From NCBI RefSeq assembly GCF_004803475.1, contig NZ_SRKY01000002.1, forward strand, positions 780,855 through 844,854: a stretch of 64,000 nucleotides of DNA, written 5' to 3'. A program made the position numbers and the translations under genes. This document shows positions 48,859-54,066 of this stretch, piece after piece. Origin of the DNA: Aliishimia ponticola. GTDB taxonomy: Bacteria > Pseudomonadota > Alphaproteobacteria > Rhodobacterales > Rhodobacteraceae. Position 1 is the stretch's first letter; every line of letters starts with the position of its first letter. The notes beneath the pieces were generated by a model. That model was given only the letters and a program-made list of their open reading frames with translations, was not told where the DNA came from and ran no database searches.

Positions 48859-49178
48859 CCCCATCAGCGGCCTTAACCGATCAGCGGGCGGGGTTCCTGA
48901 TTTGACGCGCTAGCGGCTGACTATGGGCCGTAAGTTGCGGGGCAATCGGCCTTGTCGCGAGACGGCGGGCCAAATCACCCGCCCGAACCAGCCAACGGCT
49001 CCGCAGAGAGATGCGTACAGTGATCCGCTGTCCCTCTTGGGACGGAGGGGCCTCCCATCAGAAGTAATAAACACCGTGCCGGAGAAGGGCTTAGATAGGA
49101 CGACAGTATCATAGGGTATGTGTCCCACTTTGCGTCACACTCGACCATTCAGCCGTCAACCCTATTTTTGGAATAAAG
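48859..49178. other. Chromosomal flank left of the integrative element, no supported gene
   Basis: About 320 bp between the TetR gene and the left attachment core. Short opposing frames exist (48923-49114 plus, 48910-49128 minus), but neither has a ribosome site or recognisable domain. Before integration this DNA would have adjoined the 3' end of tRNA-Cys. Confidence 0.5.
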
Positions 49179-49200
49179 TGGAGGCGAGTACCGGAATCGA
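49179..49200. repeat. Left attachment core: 22-bp copy of the tRNA-Cys 3' end
   Basis: The 22 bases are identical to 53993-54014, the acceptor/T-arm 3' end of tRNA-Cys including CCA. Sequence identity stops on both sides (G against T before; GGCGAT against ACCGGT after). It is the displaced tRNA 3' end, marking the left boundary of the element. Confidence 0.88.
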
Positions 49201-49245
49201 GGCGATATTTTTTTACATAATAATAACAATAATATAACTGGATCG

Positions 49246-49277
49246 TATGTTCCGTTATATGTTCTTTCGTATGTTCC
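49246..49277 (+). repeat. Left array of three TATGTTCC repeats at 12-bp spacing (putative integrase arm sites)
   Basis: TATGTTCC starts at 49246 and 49270, with TATGTTCT at 49258 between them, giving exactly 12 bp per unit. The array lies 46 bp inside the left core. The same octamer, same strand and spacing, occurs at the right end (53921, 53933). Confidence 0.65.
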
Positions 49278-49313
49278 ATGTTGGGGTGGGATTGCCCCAT
49301 TAGGTAAATGTTG

Positions 49314-49342
49314 TTGACATTCTTGAATGATTGTGTTATAAT
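49314..49342 (+). promoter_or_regulatory. Perfect consensus sigma-70-type promoter
   Basis: TTGACA at 49314-49319 and TATAAT at 49337-49342 are separated by 17 bp. Both hexamers match the housekeeping consensus fully. It faces the 83-aa gene starting at 49443, giving a leader of about 95 nt. Confidence 0.75.
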
Positions 49343-49442
49343 ATAACGATACTCGGCTTCATCTTTCTGTAGGTCAGTCAATTTCAGTCTGACTACATTC
49401 CGCATCTCGCCGAATGCGCAACTCGTATCCCAAGGAATTTTA

Positions 49443-49694
49443 ATGATCAGTTACGAACTAACCGGCTCTGACGAAGGGCCGACTGCCATCTGTCGCAGAA
49501 TGTATCTTAATGGTGCAGACCCAGACCAGTTGATTGAGTTCCGCCGTGGCGAGACTCTCTGTTTCGAAGCGAGGCCTATCAAGTTCTGGGCGGCGCAGAT
49601 CGTGAAGGAAGCGGATGAGGGTCACAGTATGCGATTTGTTAGGGTAGGTCTGCCAGAGAAGAGCCAGTCCAATCGAAGCGAGGCTGCAAGATAG
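49443..49694 (+). CDS. Hypothetical protein (83 aa) of the integrative element
   Basis: A small protein I do not recognise. It starts MISYELTGSDEGPTAICRRM and contains PDQLIEFRRGE and KFWAAQIVKEADEGH. It is mixed alpha/beta in appearance, with no signal peptide or membrane segment. AAGGA lies 7 nt before the ATG, and a perfect consensus promoter lies about 100 bp upstream, so expression is likely. Its place just inside the left end suggests a small regulatory or excision-related protein, but no HTH is visible. Function unknown. Confidence 0.6.
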   Translation: MISYELTGSDEGPTAICRRMYLNGADPDQLIEFRRGETLCFEARPIKFWAAQIVKEADEGHSMRFVRVGLPEKSQSNRSEAAR

Positions 49695-49882
49695 CCCGTG
49701 GACCGGGATATAAGCTGCGCTGAGAGCGTCTAGGGGCGCTTTCCATGGGGAGGTAGCCAAAAGCCCGCCACTGCGCGTCACGGAGCAAAATGTACCGGTG
49801 GTTATAATCCGCTAGTCTGGCTGTGCTGATGTGGGGCAGGAGGAAAGACAATCGCTCGATAGTACACCTTAAGGAGCCTCAA

Positions 49883-49975
49883 ATGACCCTGACCCTCGTT
49901 GAGGAAAGACAAGAGCTATAGGACCTTAAGTATATCTTGAAGGGCTTTCTTTCTGAGAGGAGACAAGAAAGATAA
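49883..49975 (+). pseudogene. Short ORF interrupted by an in-frame amber codon
   Basis: AAGGAG lies 6 nt before an ATG that encodes MTLTLVEERQEL and then TAG (49919-49921). In the same frame the sequence continues as a charged helix-like stretch (DLKYILKGFLSERRQER) to TAA at 49973-49975. The strong ribosome site and coherent frame suggest a small gene hit by a nonsense mutation, or a 12-codon leader peptide. Low confidence. Confidence 0.3.
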
Positions 49976-49983
49976 GACATAAG

Positions 49984-50050
49984 AGTACCTATCTCTCTTA
50001 TAAGTCTTACTTAAGAGGAGAAATAAAAACTTAAGAGAGATAGAGGTACT
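49984..50050. repeat. Long imperfect inverted repeat, 21-bp arms
   Basis: The arms 49984-50004 and 50030-50050 pair over 19 bases with two compensating 2-nt bulges; both begin AGTACCT at their outer ends. The 25-nt loop contains AGAGGAG. It may be a terminator-like or protein-binding structure of the element. Confidence 0.5.
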
Positions 50051-50054
50051 AAAT

Positions 50055-50071
50055 GTATACCTAAAGTATAC
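50055..50071. repeat. GTATAC-CTAAA-GTATAC repeat
   Basis: Two copies of the palindromic hexamer GTATAC (50055-50060 and 50066-50071) are separated by 5 bp, next to the longer inverted repeat. Possible regulator site. Confidence 0.3.
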
Positions 50072-50220
50072 TATATGCAGCATCTGATGGCTCTAAGGGG
50101 GGGGGATTATTCTGTGTGTCGCCTTACTGGCTGCCCCTAAGATATCCTTTTGTTACATATAGATATTCAATCAAACTCAATCTATGCGTTGAGGTCGTTC
50201 CCTAATTGCCGGAAAAATAT

Positions 50221-50312
50221 CTACTCGCTCAGGACACGATAGACGCTAGCGCGTCCTACACCCAGACGCTGTGCAATCTCTGTCGCCCCTAATCCCTCAG
50301 AGCCGCTACCAA
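50221..50312 (-). pseudogene. C-terminal remnant of a serine resolvase
   Basis: On the minus strand the last about 30 codons read SEGLGATEIAQRLG then VGRASVYRVLSE and a TAG stop (50221-50223). This matches the C-terminal HTH of Tn3-type resolvases and parallels the intact resolvase at 51376, which ends DIARKLNIGRASVYRLLKE. Upstream sequence shows no resolvase catalytic domain, so it is a truncated relic of a second transposon or recombinase. Confidence 0.7.
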
Positions 50313-50402
50313 AACACGCGGACCCGGTGGTTCCGGAAAAATTCACGAAGCTAACGGTCAGGCTTGGCGCAGCAGGCATCCCGCCAAGTCCGCTGACCTA
50401 CC

Positions 50403-51200
50403 TTAGCACAGACTTGGTCTTTTTCCTACGCGGATGAAGGCCGCAGGAACAAGTATCCCCCCAAGAAGAAGCTGTCCGCTTAGGGGAAGCGGAACCGGGG
50501 CGATTCTCGTAATTACGACATTCTCCAGATAGAAACGAGTGTCTGCGCCGAACCCCATTTGGATCATGTAATCACCGAATTGGGCAGACTTGGAAAAGGC
50601 CGCGTCATCACCGAAGCGAAAAACTCCAGAGCCATTGCCATCGAAATCAAGGCCGAACTCCATACCGTTATCAGCGGCATAGAAGCCTTCGTACGGATTA
50701 AACCCTTCGGACCAAGAGAAACCACTTAAGATGCCATGTTGAGAATCAGAACCTACCGCTTCGAACGGCTCTATCTGGGCATCATAACTTGAAGAACGAC
50801 CACTGTATGTTCCTTCCAGATAGTTTACTTGTATACCCCCTTCTGGCCGGCAAAAAATGCCTGAGAGGCATGTCATAATGATGCTAGGATAGACATATAC
50901 ATCCTTGCCAGACACACCCTGATAGGTACCGTACTCAACCTCAAGTTCCACACGCCCAGTCTCAAACAAACTGGAGCGCATCGGATGATATGCTCGTAGA
51001 AATGCTTCGCTGAAAGCATCGTACTCGGCATCGTCGATGCGGCCTCCGCTCTTGTAAACATCTACATAGGGCTTTCTACTCCCAATCACATCAAATGCGT
51101 AGTGGTAAATGCCATGCAGGTCGTAGTCGCGGGTTGTCGCTGCGAAACCTGAGCTAGGAAAGGCAAAGAGTGCGAGAGCTAGTAAATATTTCATTTTCAT
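50403..51200 (-). CDS. Exported protein with VPLP-type C-terminal sorting signal
   Basis: About 265 residues. An N-terminal signal peptide (MKMKYLLALALFAFPSSGFA) precedes a soluble domain rich in Tyr, Gly and Asp. The C terminus reads APVPLPLSGQLLLGGILV followed by a hydrophobic stretch and a basic end (RVGKR). This three-part tail resembles the VPLPA/PEP-CTERM signals recognised by exosortases in Gram-negative bacteria. The central domain is unknown. The start is uncertain between ATGs at 51200 and 51194. As cargo of a tRNA-integrated element this is an unusual surface or exopolymer-associated protein. Confidence 0.7.
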   Translation of the reverse strand: MKMKYLLALALFAFPSSGFAATTRDYDLHGIYHYAFDVIGSRKPYVDVYKSGGRIDDAEYDAFSEAFLRAYHPMRSSLFETGRVELEVEYGTYQGVSGKDVYVYPSIIMTCLSGIFCRPEGGIQVNYLEGTYSGRSSSYDAQIEPFEAVGSDSQHGILSGFSWSEGFNPYEGFYAADNGMEFGLDFDGNGSGVFRFGDDAAFSKSAQFGDYMIQMGFGADTRFYLENVVITRIAPVPLPLSGQLLLGGILVPAAFIRVGKRPSLC

Positions 51201-51375
51201 GTCCAATTTGGCGCTGGGGCGTAAAAGTAACTGCGGTGGCTCTGGTCATAAAGAGCTTTGCTACCGCACTCTCCAAGTATGTTAACTATTAATCAAGACA
51301 TTCTGCTTCTGACTCCTGCGTTTCTGCATCTCTCGCCCTAGGTTTCAGCAAAATGGACAGTTTGGCCGTCAGTCT

Positions 51376-51927
51376 TTATTCTTTCAACAAGCGATAGACG
51401 CTGGCCCTACCGATGTTCAGTTTTCTGGCAATGTCGATGACTGGCAACCCCTCGCTTTTCAGAGCTTTGATCTCGTCAATCTTGGCTCGGGCCGTTGGCT
51501 TGCGTCCCTTGTACTTGCCAGCAGCTTTGGCCTTGGCGATCCCTTCACGCTGACGCTCAAGCATGATTGATCTTTCAAACTCAGCCACACTGCCAAGTAT
51601 GGTAAGCATGAGTTTTCCTGTTGCTGTTCCGGTATCCACACCCATTGAGAGGATGCGCAGGGATGCCTTCTTGCTTTCTATCTGTTCCAATAGTTCCAGA
51701 AGGTGGGACACAGACCGGGCGAGACGATCCAGCTTGGTAACAATCAGGGTGTCTCCCTCTCTGATGTAATCCAGTGCTTCAATCAGTTGTTCACGTCTGG
51801 CCACATCCACTGACGATACCTGTTCAATGAAAACCTTCTCGCATCCCGCCTTATTCAACTCCTCTTGCTGCGCCTCAAGTCCTGCGGTTTGGTCCAGTGT
51901 TGATGTTCTGGCATACCCAACGAGCAT
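51376..51927 (-). CDS. Serine recombinase (resolvase/invertase family)
   Basis: A 183-aa recombinase. The catalytic Ser is in VGYARTSTLDQ near the N terminus, the arginine-containing active-site segment is LIVTKLDRLARS, and the C-terminal HTH ends DIARKLNIGRASVYRLLKE. It is a Tn3/Hin-type resolvase of normal length. GAGGGG lies about 8 nt before the ATG at 51927, so an extension to 51957 is not needed. A 32-nt imperfect palindrome lies about 75 bp upstream and could be part of its recombination site. Confidence 0.9.
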   Translation of the reverse strand: MLVGYARTSTLDQTAGLEAQQEELNKAGCEKVFIEQVSSVDVARREQLIEALDYIREGDTLIVTKLDRLARSVSHLLELLEQIESKKASLRILSMGVDTGTATGKLMLTILGSVAEFERSIMLERQREGIAKAKAAGKYKGRKPTARAKIDEIKALKSEGLPVIDIARKLNIGRASVYRLLKE

Positions 51928-52236
51928 CTCATTCCCCTCTTGTCTCATTAAGGTCAAAGATACAGTAAGGCGAGTGTCCCGAAATGTGAATCCTACTTGT
52001 GTGAGACAGTTTGACTCAGGTTGCTGAGTGTCTCGTTAGGGCTTGATCTATTGGGGTGCAGCTTATGCGGAGGCTGCTGAAAGCTAGGGGGCCTTTACAA
52101 AATCCGCTTTGCTTGACAACCGGGGCAGGGGGAGTGGGGGTGACTGCAGTTCCTTGAAAGGAGCCAAAAAATTTTCACACAGGATTGTCTATAACTCACT
52201 GGCATTCCCCGACTGAAAAGTGAAATGAGTAAGTCG
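51928..52236. other. 309-bp gap upstream of the resolvase
   Basis: No gene is supported. It contains a dyad: GAGAC (52003-52007) and GTCTC (52030-52034) enclose ACTCAG-GTTG-CTGAGT (52014-52029). With the resolvase start 75 bp away, a res-like or operator role is possible. The rest shows nothing recognisable. Confidence 0.45.
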
Positions 52237-52569
52237 CTATTCACAAGGCCCAAAAGAAAATGTGTTGTCCGCAGTGTAGGTGAGAACATCGAAAAGGGGT
52301 TGGGTCGTCTTTCGTCTGCACGTGAGTGCTCCGTCGCCGGGCCACAATCTGCAGGCATACACATTGTCTTTGTACAAAACGGCAAGCTGAAAGGTGGTGT
52401 CATTCATTGTCGCTAACACTTCGCCACCTGCCACTATCTCATCAGCTGACTCGTACTTCCAATGGTTCTCGTAAGCATTAGAATCGGTCCTTTGCTGAGT
52501 GCAACCCTCCGCAGCGGCGTTGGATGCCAGCACGGAGATTATTGGAAGGGTAATAAATGTGGTATTCAT
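52237..52569 (-). CDS. Small secreted Cys-containing hypothetical protein
   Basis: 110 residues. A signal peptide (MNTTFITLPIISVLASNAAA) is followed by EGCTQQRTDSNAYENHWKY and three more Cys, the last near the C terminus (FGPCE). The four Cys of the mature part could form two disulfides in the periplasm. It resembles no family I can name. AGCAGGT precedes the ATG at 52569. It lies 34 bp downstream of the integrase, in the same direction, so it could be co-transcribed. Confidence 0.6.
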   Translation of the reverse strand: MNTTFITLPIISVLASNAAAEGCTQQRTDSNAYENHWKYESADEIVAGGEVLATMNDTTFQLAVLYKDNVYACRLWPGDGALTCRRKTTQPLFDVLTYTADNTFSFGPCE

Positions 52570-52603
52570 ATAGACCTGCTTGTTAAATTAGTGGGTCTTA
52601 GTT

Positions 52604-53917
52604 TTATAGCCAGTGATGTTCGATTTTGTCTAACGACTCTTTCCTGACCTTCAGTGACGGGCCTGAGCCGTAGGTACCTGCAACGTCCCCAGAGCTATGC
52701 CCAGTAATAAAATCGTTGGTTTCTTTGTCAACGCCAGCTGAGCGCAGTTTGTCTTTCAGGTTGCCTCGAAAGGAGTGAGCAACCTTCTGTGGATCGTCCG
52801 TTACCTTTCGTATCACAGCCATGCAGGCCTTGGAGGCTGGACCTTGTTTCTTTCCGTCAGAATTGCGTTTGAACTGGTGGAAAATCTGGCCTGTCCCGCT
52901 GCCGGGTTTGAACTTTGTCGCCAGAACGGCAGGAACAGGGACCTTTCTGGCGGAGCCGATGTTCTTAACTCTTTTGTCCCTGTGGGTGAGGTCGAAGAAC
53001 ACAACGCCATCTTCCTCTTTGATGTCTTCCCAATCTAGTAGGGCAGCTTCGTCCAGACGCATCCCTGTTGTGCATAGGATTTCCATAAGGTCGCGGACAT
53101 GTTTCGGCATCGTTTGCTTGAATATTTCTACTAACTCTGCATCCGTAAAAGGCAAACGGTGCAAAGTTCTTGCTTTTGAACTCGTAGGTAGACTCAATCC
53201 CCGGAAAGCATTGTCCGGCAGGACACCGGAACGCACGAAGTAACTTAGTAGCCCTCTGACGTACCCAAGTTTTTTCTTGGTGGTGCTTTGGGATTTGGTC
53301 GCCGAGATATGATCAGCATACCGGTACCCATCTATGCTCTTTATTTCTTCCAACGTGCTGGCGCTTGTGAACTCAGCGAATTCATTCAGGGCCGTTTCAG
53401 CCTCTTTGGCGGTCTTGTTTAGGGCGTAGGGCTTGGTCGATAGGTACTCAGAAATCGCCGCAGAAATAGTATGGTCAGACGTTGCGGGAATTATATCTTC
53501 TTCTAATGTTTCCAAAATAGAGAGCGCTTCGAGAGCTGCGTCGCGCTCTTCAATCGCAGTAAAATAATCCTCTTCCAAGCCGGTCGTTGGTAGCTTCTCC
53601 TTGGATAGGTCTTCCACGACTTCAGAGAGGCTTCCAGAAGCAGCAAGCTCATCTACGTCCTCTGGGGTAAGGGAGGTGGCTAGAGTATCTTTCAGCGTCC
53701 CCAGCGGGTCAGGCCGGTGTTTGTCCAGCCAGTCATACATCCTCATGGTTAAGGCTCCACGCTTACTTTCAGCTACGCCCTTGTCGCTGGTGCCAGTCGA
53801 CAATCGATACTGGTTCCTGCCGGTCGCCTCACGTAAGTCCGCTGGCACGGTCATGTTCGCGTAGTACTTGCCCTTTGATTTCATGAAGACGAGTTTGACG
53901 GGTGGGTAGTCGGCCAT
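52604..53917 (-). CDS. Tyrosine-type site-specific integrase
   Basis: A 437-aa phage-type recombinase. The N-terminal YYANMTVPADLREATG resembles the DUF6538-type arm-binding region, and a SAM-like core-binding domain spans about 150-230. Catalytic residues are in order: Arg287 (TGMRLDEA), a Lys in the RKVPVP beta-hairpin region, His381-x-x-Arg384 (HSFR), His407 (GHSSGD) and Tyr416 (GTYG). I use the ATG at 53917; a TTG at 53932 lies within the repeat array. The gene abuts the tRNA-Cys attachment site, and its 5' end overlaps the putative arm sites, suggesting self-regulation. Confidence 0.93.
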   Translation of the reverse strand: MADYPPVKLVFMKSKGKYYANMTVPADLREATGRNQYRLSTGTSDKGVAESKRGALTMRMYDWLDKHRPDPLGTLKDTLATSLTPEDVDELAASGSLSEVVEDLSKEKLPTTGLEEDYFTAIEERDAALEALSILETLEEDIIPATSDHTISAAISEYLSTKPYALNKTAKEAETALNEFAEFTSASTLEEIKSIDGYRYADHISATKSQSTTKKKLGYVRGLLSYFVRSGVLPDNAFRGLSLPTSSKARTLHRLPFTDAELVEIFKQTMPKHVRDLMEILCTTGMRLDEAALLDWEDIKEEDGVVFFDLTHRDKRVKNIGSARKVPVPAVLATKFKPGSGTGQIFHQFKRNSDGKKQGPASKACMAVIRKVTDDPQKVAHSFRGNLKDKLRSAGVDKETNDFITGHSSGDVAGTYGSGPSLKVRKESLDKIEHHWL

Positions 53918-53920
53918 CTG

Positions 53921-53952
53921 TATGTTCCGCAATATGTTCCATAGTATGCCTC
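53921..53952 (+). repeat. Right array of TATGTTCC repeats at 12-bp spacing (putative integrase arm sites)
   Basis: TATGTTCC at 53921-53928 and 53933-53940, then TATGCCTC at 53945, again 12 bp apart. The array is between the integrase start and the right core. It matches the left array in motif, spacing and orientation. Confidence 0.65.
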
Positions 53953-53992
53953 AAGAGGCTAACATACTGGGAAAAAATTGGAATGGTGGCTT

Positions 53993-54014
53993 TGGAGGCG
54001 AGTACCGGAATCGA
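53993..54014. repeat. Right attachment core within tRNA-Cys
   Basis: Identical to 49179-49200 over 22 bp; covers the CCA end, acceptor 3' strand and T-arm 3' half of tRNA-Cys. Confidence 0.88.
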
Positions 54015-54066
54015 ACCGGTGTACACGGATTTGCAATCCGCTGCGTCACCACTCCGCCAACTCGCC
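53993..54066 (-). tRNA. tRNA-Cys (GCA)
   Basis: On the minus strand the sequence folds as a complete cloverleaf: acceptor GGCGAGT pairs with ACTCGCC, the D-arm has GCGGAGTGGTGACGCAGC, the anticodon loop TTGCAAA carries anticodon GCA, the T-arm is CCGGTTCGATTCCGG, then discriminator T and encoded CCA. The terminal 22 bases are the integration core shared with 49179-49200. The gene remains intact because the element restores its 3' end. Confidence 0.96.

Follow-up and report, generated by a model that had tools for sequence, protein, structure and literature searches.

Matching arrays of short direct repeats at both ends of a tRNA-Cys island as probable arm-type sites of its DUF6538 integrase

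Introduction

Short direct repeats lie just inside both ends of a segment within the 64,000-nucleotide stretch of Aliishimia ponticola DNA analysed here (the window), and the question raised by this locus is which protein, if any, the repeats serve. An earlier note, made from the letters alone, had read them as arm-type binding sites of a tyrosine integrase, with the right array placed where the integrase could control its own gene. Here, the locus is compared with related islands, and the other proteins that might use the repeats are weighed against the integrase.

Results

The core is TGGAGGCGAGTACCGGAATCGA, a perfect 22-bp direct repeat identical to the 3' end of tRNA-Cys, and the relative G002 has the empty site: there, the homologue of window 48957-49178 runs straight into tRNA-Cys, and the alignment with the joined window flanks is uninterrupted, with 79% identity over 298 bp. 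The empty site thus fixes the ends of the island as follows:

49179..53992: integrated island of 4,814 bp, the stretch between the two core copies
49179..49200 (+): left core copy, 22-bp repeat, displaced tRNA-Cys 3' end
53993..54014 (+): right core copy, 22-bp repeat, 3' end of the working tRNA-Cys
53993..54066 (-): tRNA-Cys (gca), the target gene

A direct repeat of a tRNA 3' end, an adjacent integrase gene and an empty site in a relative mark the locus as a tRNA-integrated genomic island. Short matches to the left of 49179 were suggestive of the scar of an older element, but this was rejected because G002 carries the same flank next to its empty tRNA-Cys, so that the flank is ancestral. Fragments of tRNA-Cys near the tRNA in several other relatives suggest that the site is a hotspot.

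The rest of the island is described here for orientation. A 12/12 promoter match (TTGACA-17-TATAAT, TG preceding the -10) at 49314-49342 (+) starts 36 bp inside the left array, reads into the island and points to an 83-aa ORF at 49443, which has a related ORF in island G596. A small serine recombinase/resolvase, member of a broad family, is encoded at 51376-51930 (-). The remains of a second resolvase C-terminus lie at 50221-50379 (-) and match the last part of the intact protein with 61% identity across 26 residues. The protein encoded at 50403-51203 (-) has a signal-like start and found no match in Pfam or NCBIfam; we take its C-terminal VPLPLSGQLLLGG stretch to resemble VPLPA-CTERM sorting signals. 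The island also has small ORFs of unknown function, and no excisionase gene was recognised in it.

The arrays that the earlier note had described inside both ends are real, and consist of six units:

49246..49253 (+): left arm unit 1, TATGTTCC
49258..49265 (+): left arm unit 2, TATGTTCT, one mismatch
49270..49277 (+): left arm unit 3, TATGTTCC
53921..53928 (+): right arm unit nearest int, TATGTTCC
53933..53940 (+): right arm unit 2, TATGTTCC
53945..53952 (+): right arm unit 3, degenerate, TATGCCTC, 5/8 letters

All six share the plus strand and a 12-bp pitch, as claimed, and the gaps to the core (45 bp on the left; 40 bp on the right, degenerate unit included) fall within the 40-46 bp given before. 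The degenerate third right unit is credible because the relatives also have a degenerate third unit, which keeps TATG. Short sites recur to either side of the core, within the element, and attB lacks them, which is the layout of arm-type sites; the arrays belong to the incoming element rather than to attB because G002 joins the flanks directly. A single unit is not rare, as TATGTTCC with at most one mismatch has 32 matches in the window against 26 expected. The spaced pair TATGTTCYN4TATGTTCY occurs at three places in the 4.08-Mb genome, all of them in the island arrays, and its reversed control gave no match in the same genome. The pair was found in 6 of 395 genomes of the bacterial family, against one match for the reversed control, and in four of the six (those of the window, G141, G240 and G089) it adjoins an integrase of this kind or an integrase fragment; the matches in G261 and G176 have no such integrase alongside.

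The integrase gene int reads away from tRNA-Cys, and its product is organised as follows:

52604..53917 (-): tyrosine integrase (Int), 437 aa, DUF6538 + Phage_integrase
53714..53917 (-): N-terminal DUF6538 domain, proposed arm-binding domain

Pfam places DUF6538 at residues 13-68 and Phage_integrase at residues 265-416, and the RLDEAA, HSFRG, TGH and final Y motifs are conserved in the alignment. Int therefore has an N-terminal domain ahead of the core-binding and catalytic domains, as heterobivalent integrases do. The start codon is likely the ATG at 53917 rather than the upstream TTG at 53932, because the relatives begin with the same M-x-x-Y-P region; with this start, the right array, which begins 3 bp upstream of the ATG, would lie in the int leader, outside the coding sequence. 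No sigma-70 promoter was found upstream of int, and the leader RNA fold is unremarkable (z -1.5). A perfect 12-bp palindrome, GCCTCAAGAGGC, at 53948-53959 in the leader overlaps the degenerate right unit; it was not seen in the relatives inspected.

The DUF6538 domain was modelled with a pLDDT of 90.5 in the order strand-strand-helix-strand-helix (strands 7-12, 17-23 and 36-40; helices 26-32 and 46-67), while the full-length model was poor (pLDDT 55). The modelled domain is in keeping with the three strands and a helix reported for arm-binding domains (PMC8138268). The fold matched 3rmp, a P4-like integrase on attP DNA, with a weak Z of 4.0 that many unrelated chains reach alike, and AP2 6sy0 with a low Z of 4.8, again among unrelated chains; a Foldseek search with the N-domain model gave no significant match.

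The relatives were then considered as a set of 20 DUF6538 tyrosine integrases, the window's included, of which those compared directly are 32-59% identical to the window Int. Units at a pitch of about 12 bp lie just upstream of the int start codon in those examined, and in a period scan of the upstream DNA 14 of the 20 exceeded z 2.5 at period 12 and none did so at 11 or 13. The check that the earlier note had proposed, a search for the arrays in close relatives, thus found them at the same place and pitch in about 20 related elements. The word itself varies: TATGTTCC is shared by G141a, G240 and G089; TATACTCC or ATACCCTCC is used by Yoonia, G596 and G141b; and there are CATCCTCC in G329, TAGTGTCC in G608 (four units), TACAGTCC in G595, TAATGTCC in G498, TAGTTCCC in G438 and TAATGTCA in G406 and G493. 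Searches of phages, plasmids and viral contigs found no close integrase save L207, an N-terminal fragment accompanied by a TAACCTCC array of its own, and matches to the bare pattern in viral sequences may be due to chance.

More distant integrases hinted at the same pitch for all DUF6538 proteins, but this rule was rejected on a sample of 30 integrases picked by domain score, where 5/30 had period 12 and 6/30 had period 13. The 12-bp pitch is therefore, as judged from these sequences, a feature of this integrase subfamily and not of DUF6538 generally. As a separate observation, Arm-DNA-bind_3 (PF13356) integrases of the same bacterial family (L258-L287) show a 10-bp pitch upstream of int in 9 of 30. 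In genome G329 a related integrase (L048 17414-18727, minus strand) is broken by one in-frame stop after residue 90 and both arm arrays are kept, and in genome G141 an int 5'-end remnant with a TATGTTCC array (L041 3228-3340) lies directly outside the left core of another island, so that islands appear to be stacked at tRNA-Ser there.

Both ends could be delimited, by finding the left core copy, in 11 islands including the window's (for Yoonia, G193 and G075 the locus DNA examined showed no such copy), and in these 11 the same word lies inside the left core copy as upstream of int. Compared on the same strand, the right array matched the left arm of its own island with a mean score of 17.4, against 4.4 for the left arms of other islands, and on the opposite strand the scores were 1.7 and 2.7, respectively. 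The own left arm ranked first for 8 of the 11 right arrays and second for two, with G341 weak at rank 5. None of 100,000 permutations gave an own-end match as good, a result that overstates independence because the 11 islands are kin to each other. One word is therefore used in both arms and is specific to the element's own integrase, as would be expected of arm-type sites.

These results also bear on the possibility that the repeats are a product of chance or of simple repetition, or that the right array is merely the conserved ribosome-binding site of int. When complemented, the unit is indeed purine-rich (GGAAC, GGAGG), and several relatives have it 2-4 bp from their start codon; in the window GGAACATA, the complement of the 53921..53928 unit, may double as the ribosome-binding site 3 bp from the int ATG. 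However, such a site accounts neither for units 2 and 3 nor for any part of the left array, and chance is largely refuted by the uniqueness of the spaced pair in the genome and by the matching ends. We regard this explanation as very improbable.

The arrays are also in register with the core. In most islands 48-50 bp separate the first left unit from the end of the 19-bp core, and in the others 71-72 or 96 bp; the right units likewise fall on 12-bp steps from the core. The concentration of phase relative to the core was R 0.87 on the left and 0.78 on the right, compared with R 0.49 relative to the start codon; the register p-values of 4e-5 and 3.6e-4 exaggerate the significance, the islands being related. 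A protein complex anchored to the core would require such a register, which a regulatory site confined to the leader would not.

Which protein reads the arrays can then be judged from the gene content. Int belongs to the only gene family present in all 11 islands. The small serine recombinase at 51376-51930 comes near to this, with a member in 10 of the 11, and a pairing of tyrosine integrase and serine recombinase may therefore be typical of these islands. As the binder of the arrays, it is scarcely credible: G438 is without the gene yet keeps both arrays, the directly detected copies are only about 27-50% identical, and the arrays are in register with the core of a tyrosine integrase. A directionality factor (excisionase) or a repressor encoded by the element deserves more attention, since excisionases can bind direct repeats close to an att core, the position of the right array in the int leader would suit a repressor, and the island has small ORFs of unknown function. 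Against this, Int alone among the gene families spans all 11 islands, even if divergent small proteins may have escaped detection; the arrays at both ends share one word; and the motif follows the integrase tree. In the tree of catalytic domains the target switches between tRNA-Cys and tRNA-Ser, and the word follows the integrase. We therefore consider an excisionase or repressor unlikely. The arm-type reading of the earlier note is supported by relatives that share place and pitch and by a word that agrees between the ends, and comparison of these sequences makes it very probable that the DUF6538 tyrosine integrase of the island uses the arrays as its P and P' arm-type sites. The word differs from island to island yet agrees at both ends of each, so that site and enzyme seem to change together.

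The N-terminal domain offers a candidate for what changes. All four TATGTTCC integrases, the window's included, have Asn at residue 21, which lies in strand 2 with near-invariant neighbours; integrases with other words have a different residue there. Asn21, in the middle of the strand, thus goes with TATGTTCC, and bulky residues go with ATACTCC or ATCCTCC. In the N-domain tree the window Int is not nearest to the other TATGTTCC integrases, and we hypothesise that residue 21 is a specificity residue on the strength of only about two independent lineages.

Discussion

Taken with the position of the sites, these findings suggest how the element may work. In the excised circle, the tRNA-Cys core would be flanked by two three-unit arrays in the same direction. 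We infer that Int protomers would use their N-terminal DUF6538 domains to hold units one 12-bp step apart, with the catalytic domains acting at the core while the N-domains sit on the arms, and that a DNA bend would join arms and core in an intasome for integration and excision. In the integrated state, Int on the integrase-proximal array in the int leader would lower its own expression; as the right array occupies the leader, binding of Int there should limit int expression. Feedback control of int by Int, which the earlier note had expected, is plausible by position and by precedent. We also propose, tentatively and with more doubt than confidence, that the arm word may shift with very few N-domain residues while the 12-bp core register stays fixed, in which case DUF6538 could be a re-programmable arm-binding domain with switchable specificity, target tRNA and cargo varying independently.

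Of 120 sampled genomes of the bacterial family, at least 70 carry DUF6538, and a likely job for this domain of unknown function is one outcome of this work. The arrays also add sites that ordinary annotation overlooks, the roughly twenty naturally occurring pairings of arm word and integrase domain form a data set for how arm-site specificity evolves, and the layout outlines a minimal attP for the use of such integrases as tools.

Arm-type sites have been predicted in Cluster K mycobacteriophages (CrimD, Anaya and Pixie) and in L5 and Giles; Pixie, which uses a tRNA-Lys site, has a pair on the left and three on the right in direct orientation, and in Cluster K phages changes of site accompany changes at Int N-terminal residues 17 and 19 (PMC3203893). 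As in those phages, the present repeats form small arrays on either side of the attP core, and specificity is deduced from paired changes of sites and N-terminal residues (PMC3203893). Unlike them, the islands described here show no phage kin, have a 12-bp pitch and offer many more site variants, whereas the mycobacteriophages infect Actinobacteria and K1 sites are 11-bp. For the feedback, the closest parallel is IntS of the KplE1 prophage, whose promoter region overlaps its own arm-type sites and whose negative autoregulation was demonstrated by experiment; autoregulation has been predicted for most tRNA-linked integrases (PMC2951348). Our integrase is likewise tRNA-linked, as in the IntS/attL case, with the array in the leader and regulation suggested by this position. 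Tyrosine recombinases with arm-binding domains include those of Tn916, BPP-1, SXT and other subgroups (PMC8138268), and like these typical integrases of mobile elements, Int has a strand-rich N-terminal domain before the core-binding and catalytic domains. DUF6538 is not named in the passages of that source consulted, nor did a literature search find it named in any paper. The arrays and Int would be a further case of the known arm-site type, with an unusually clear series of matched site changes.
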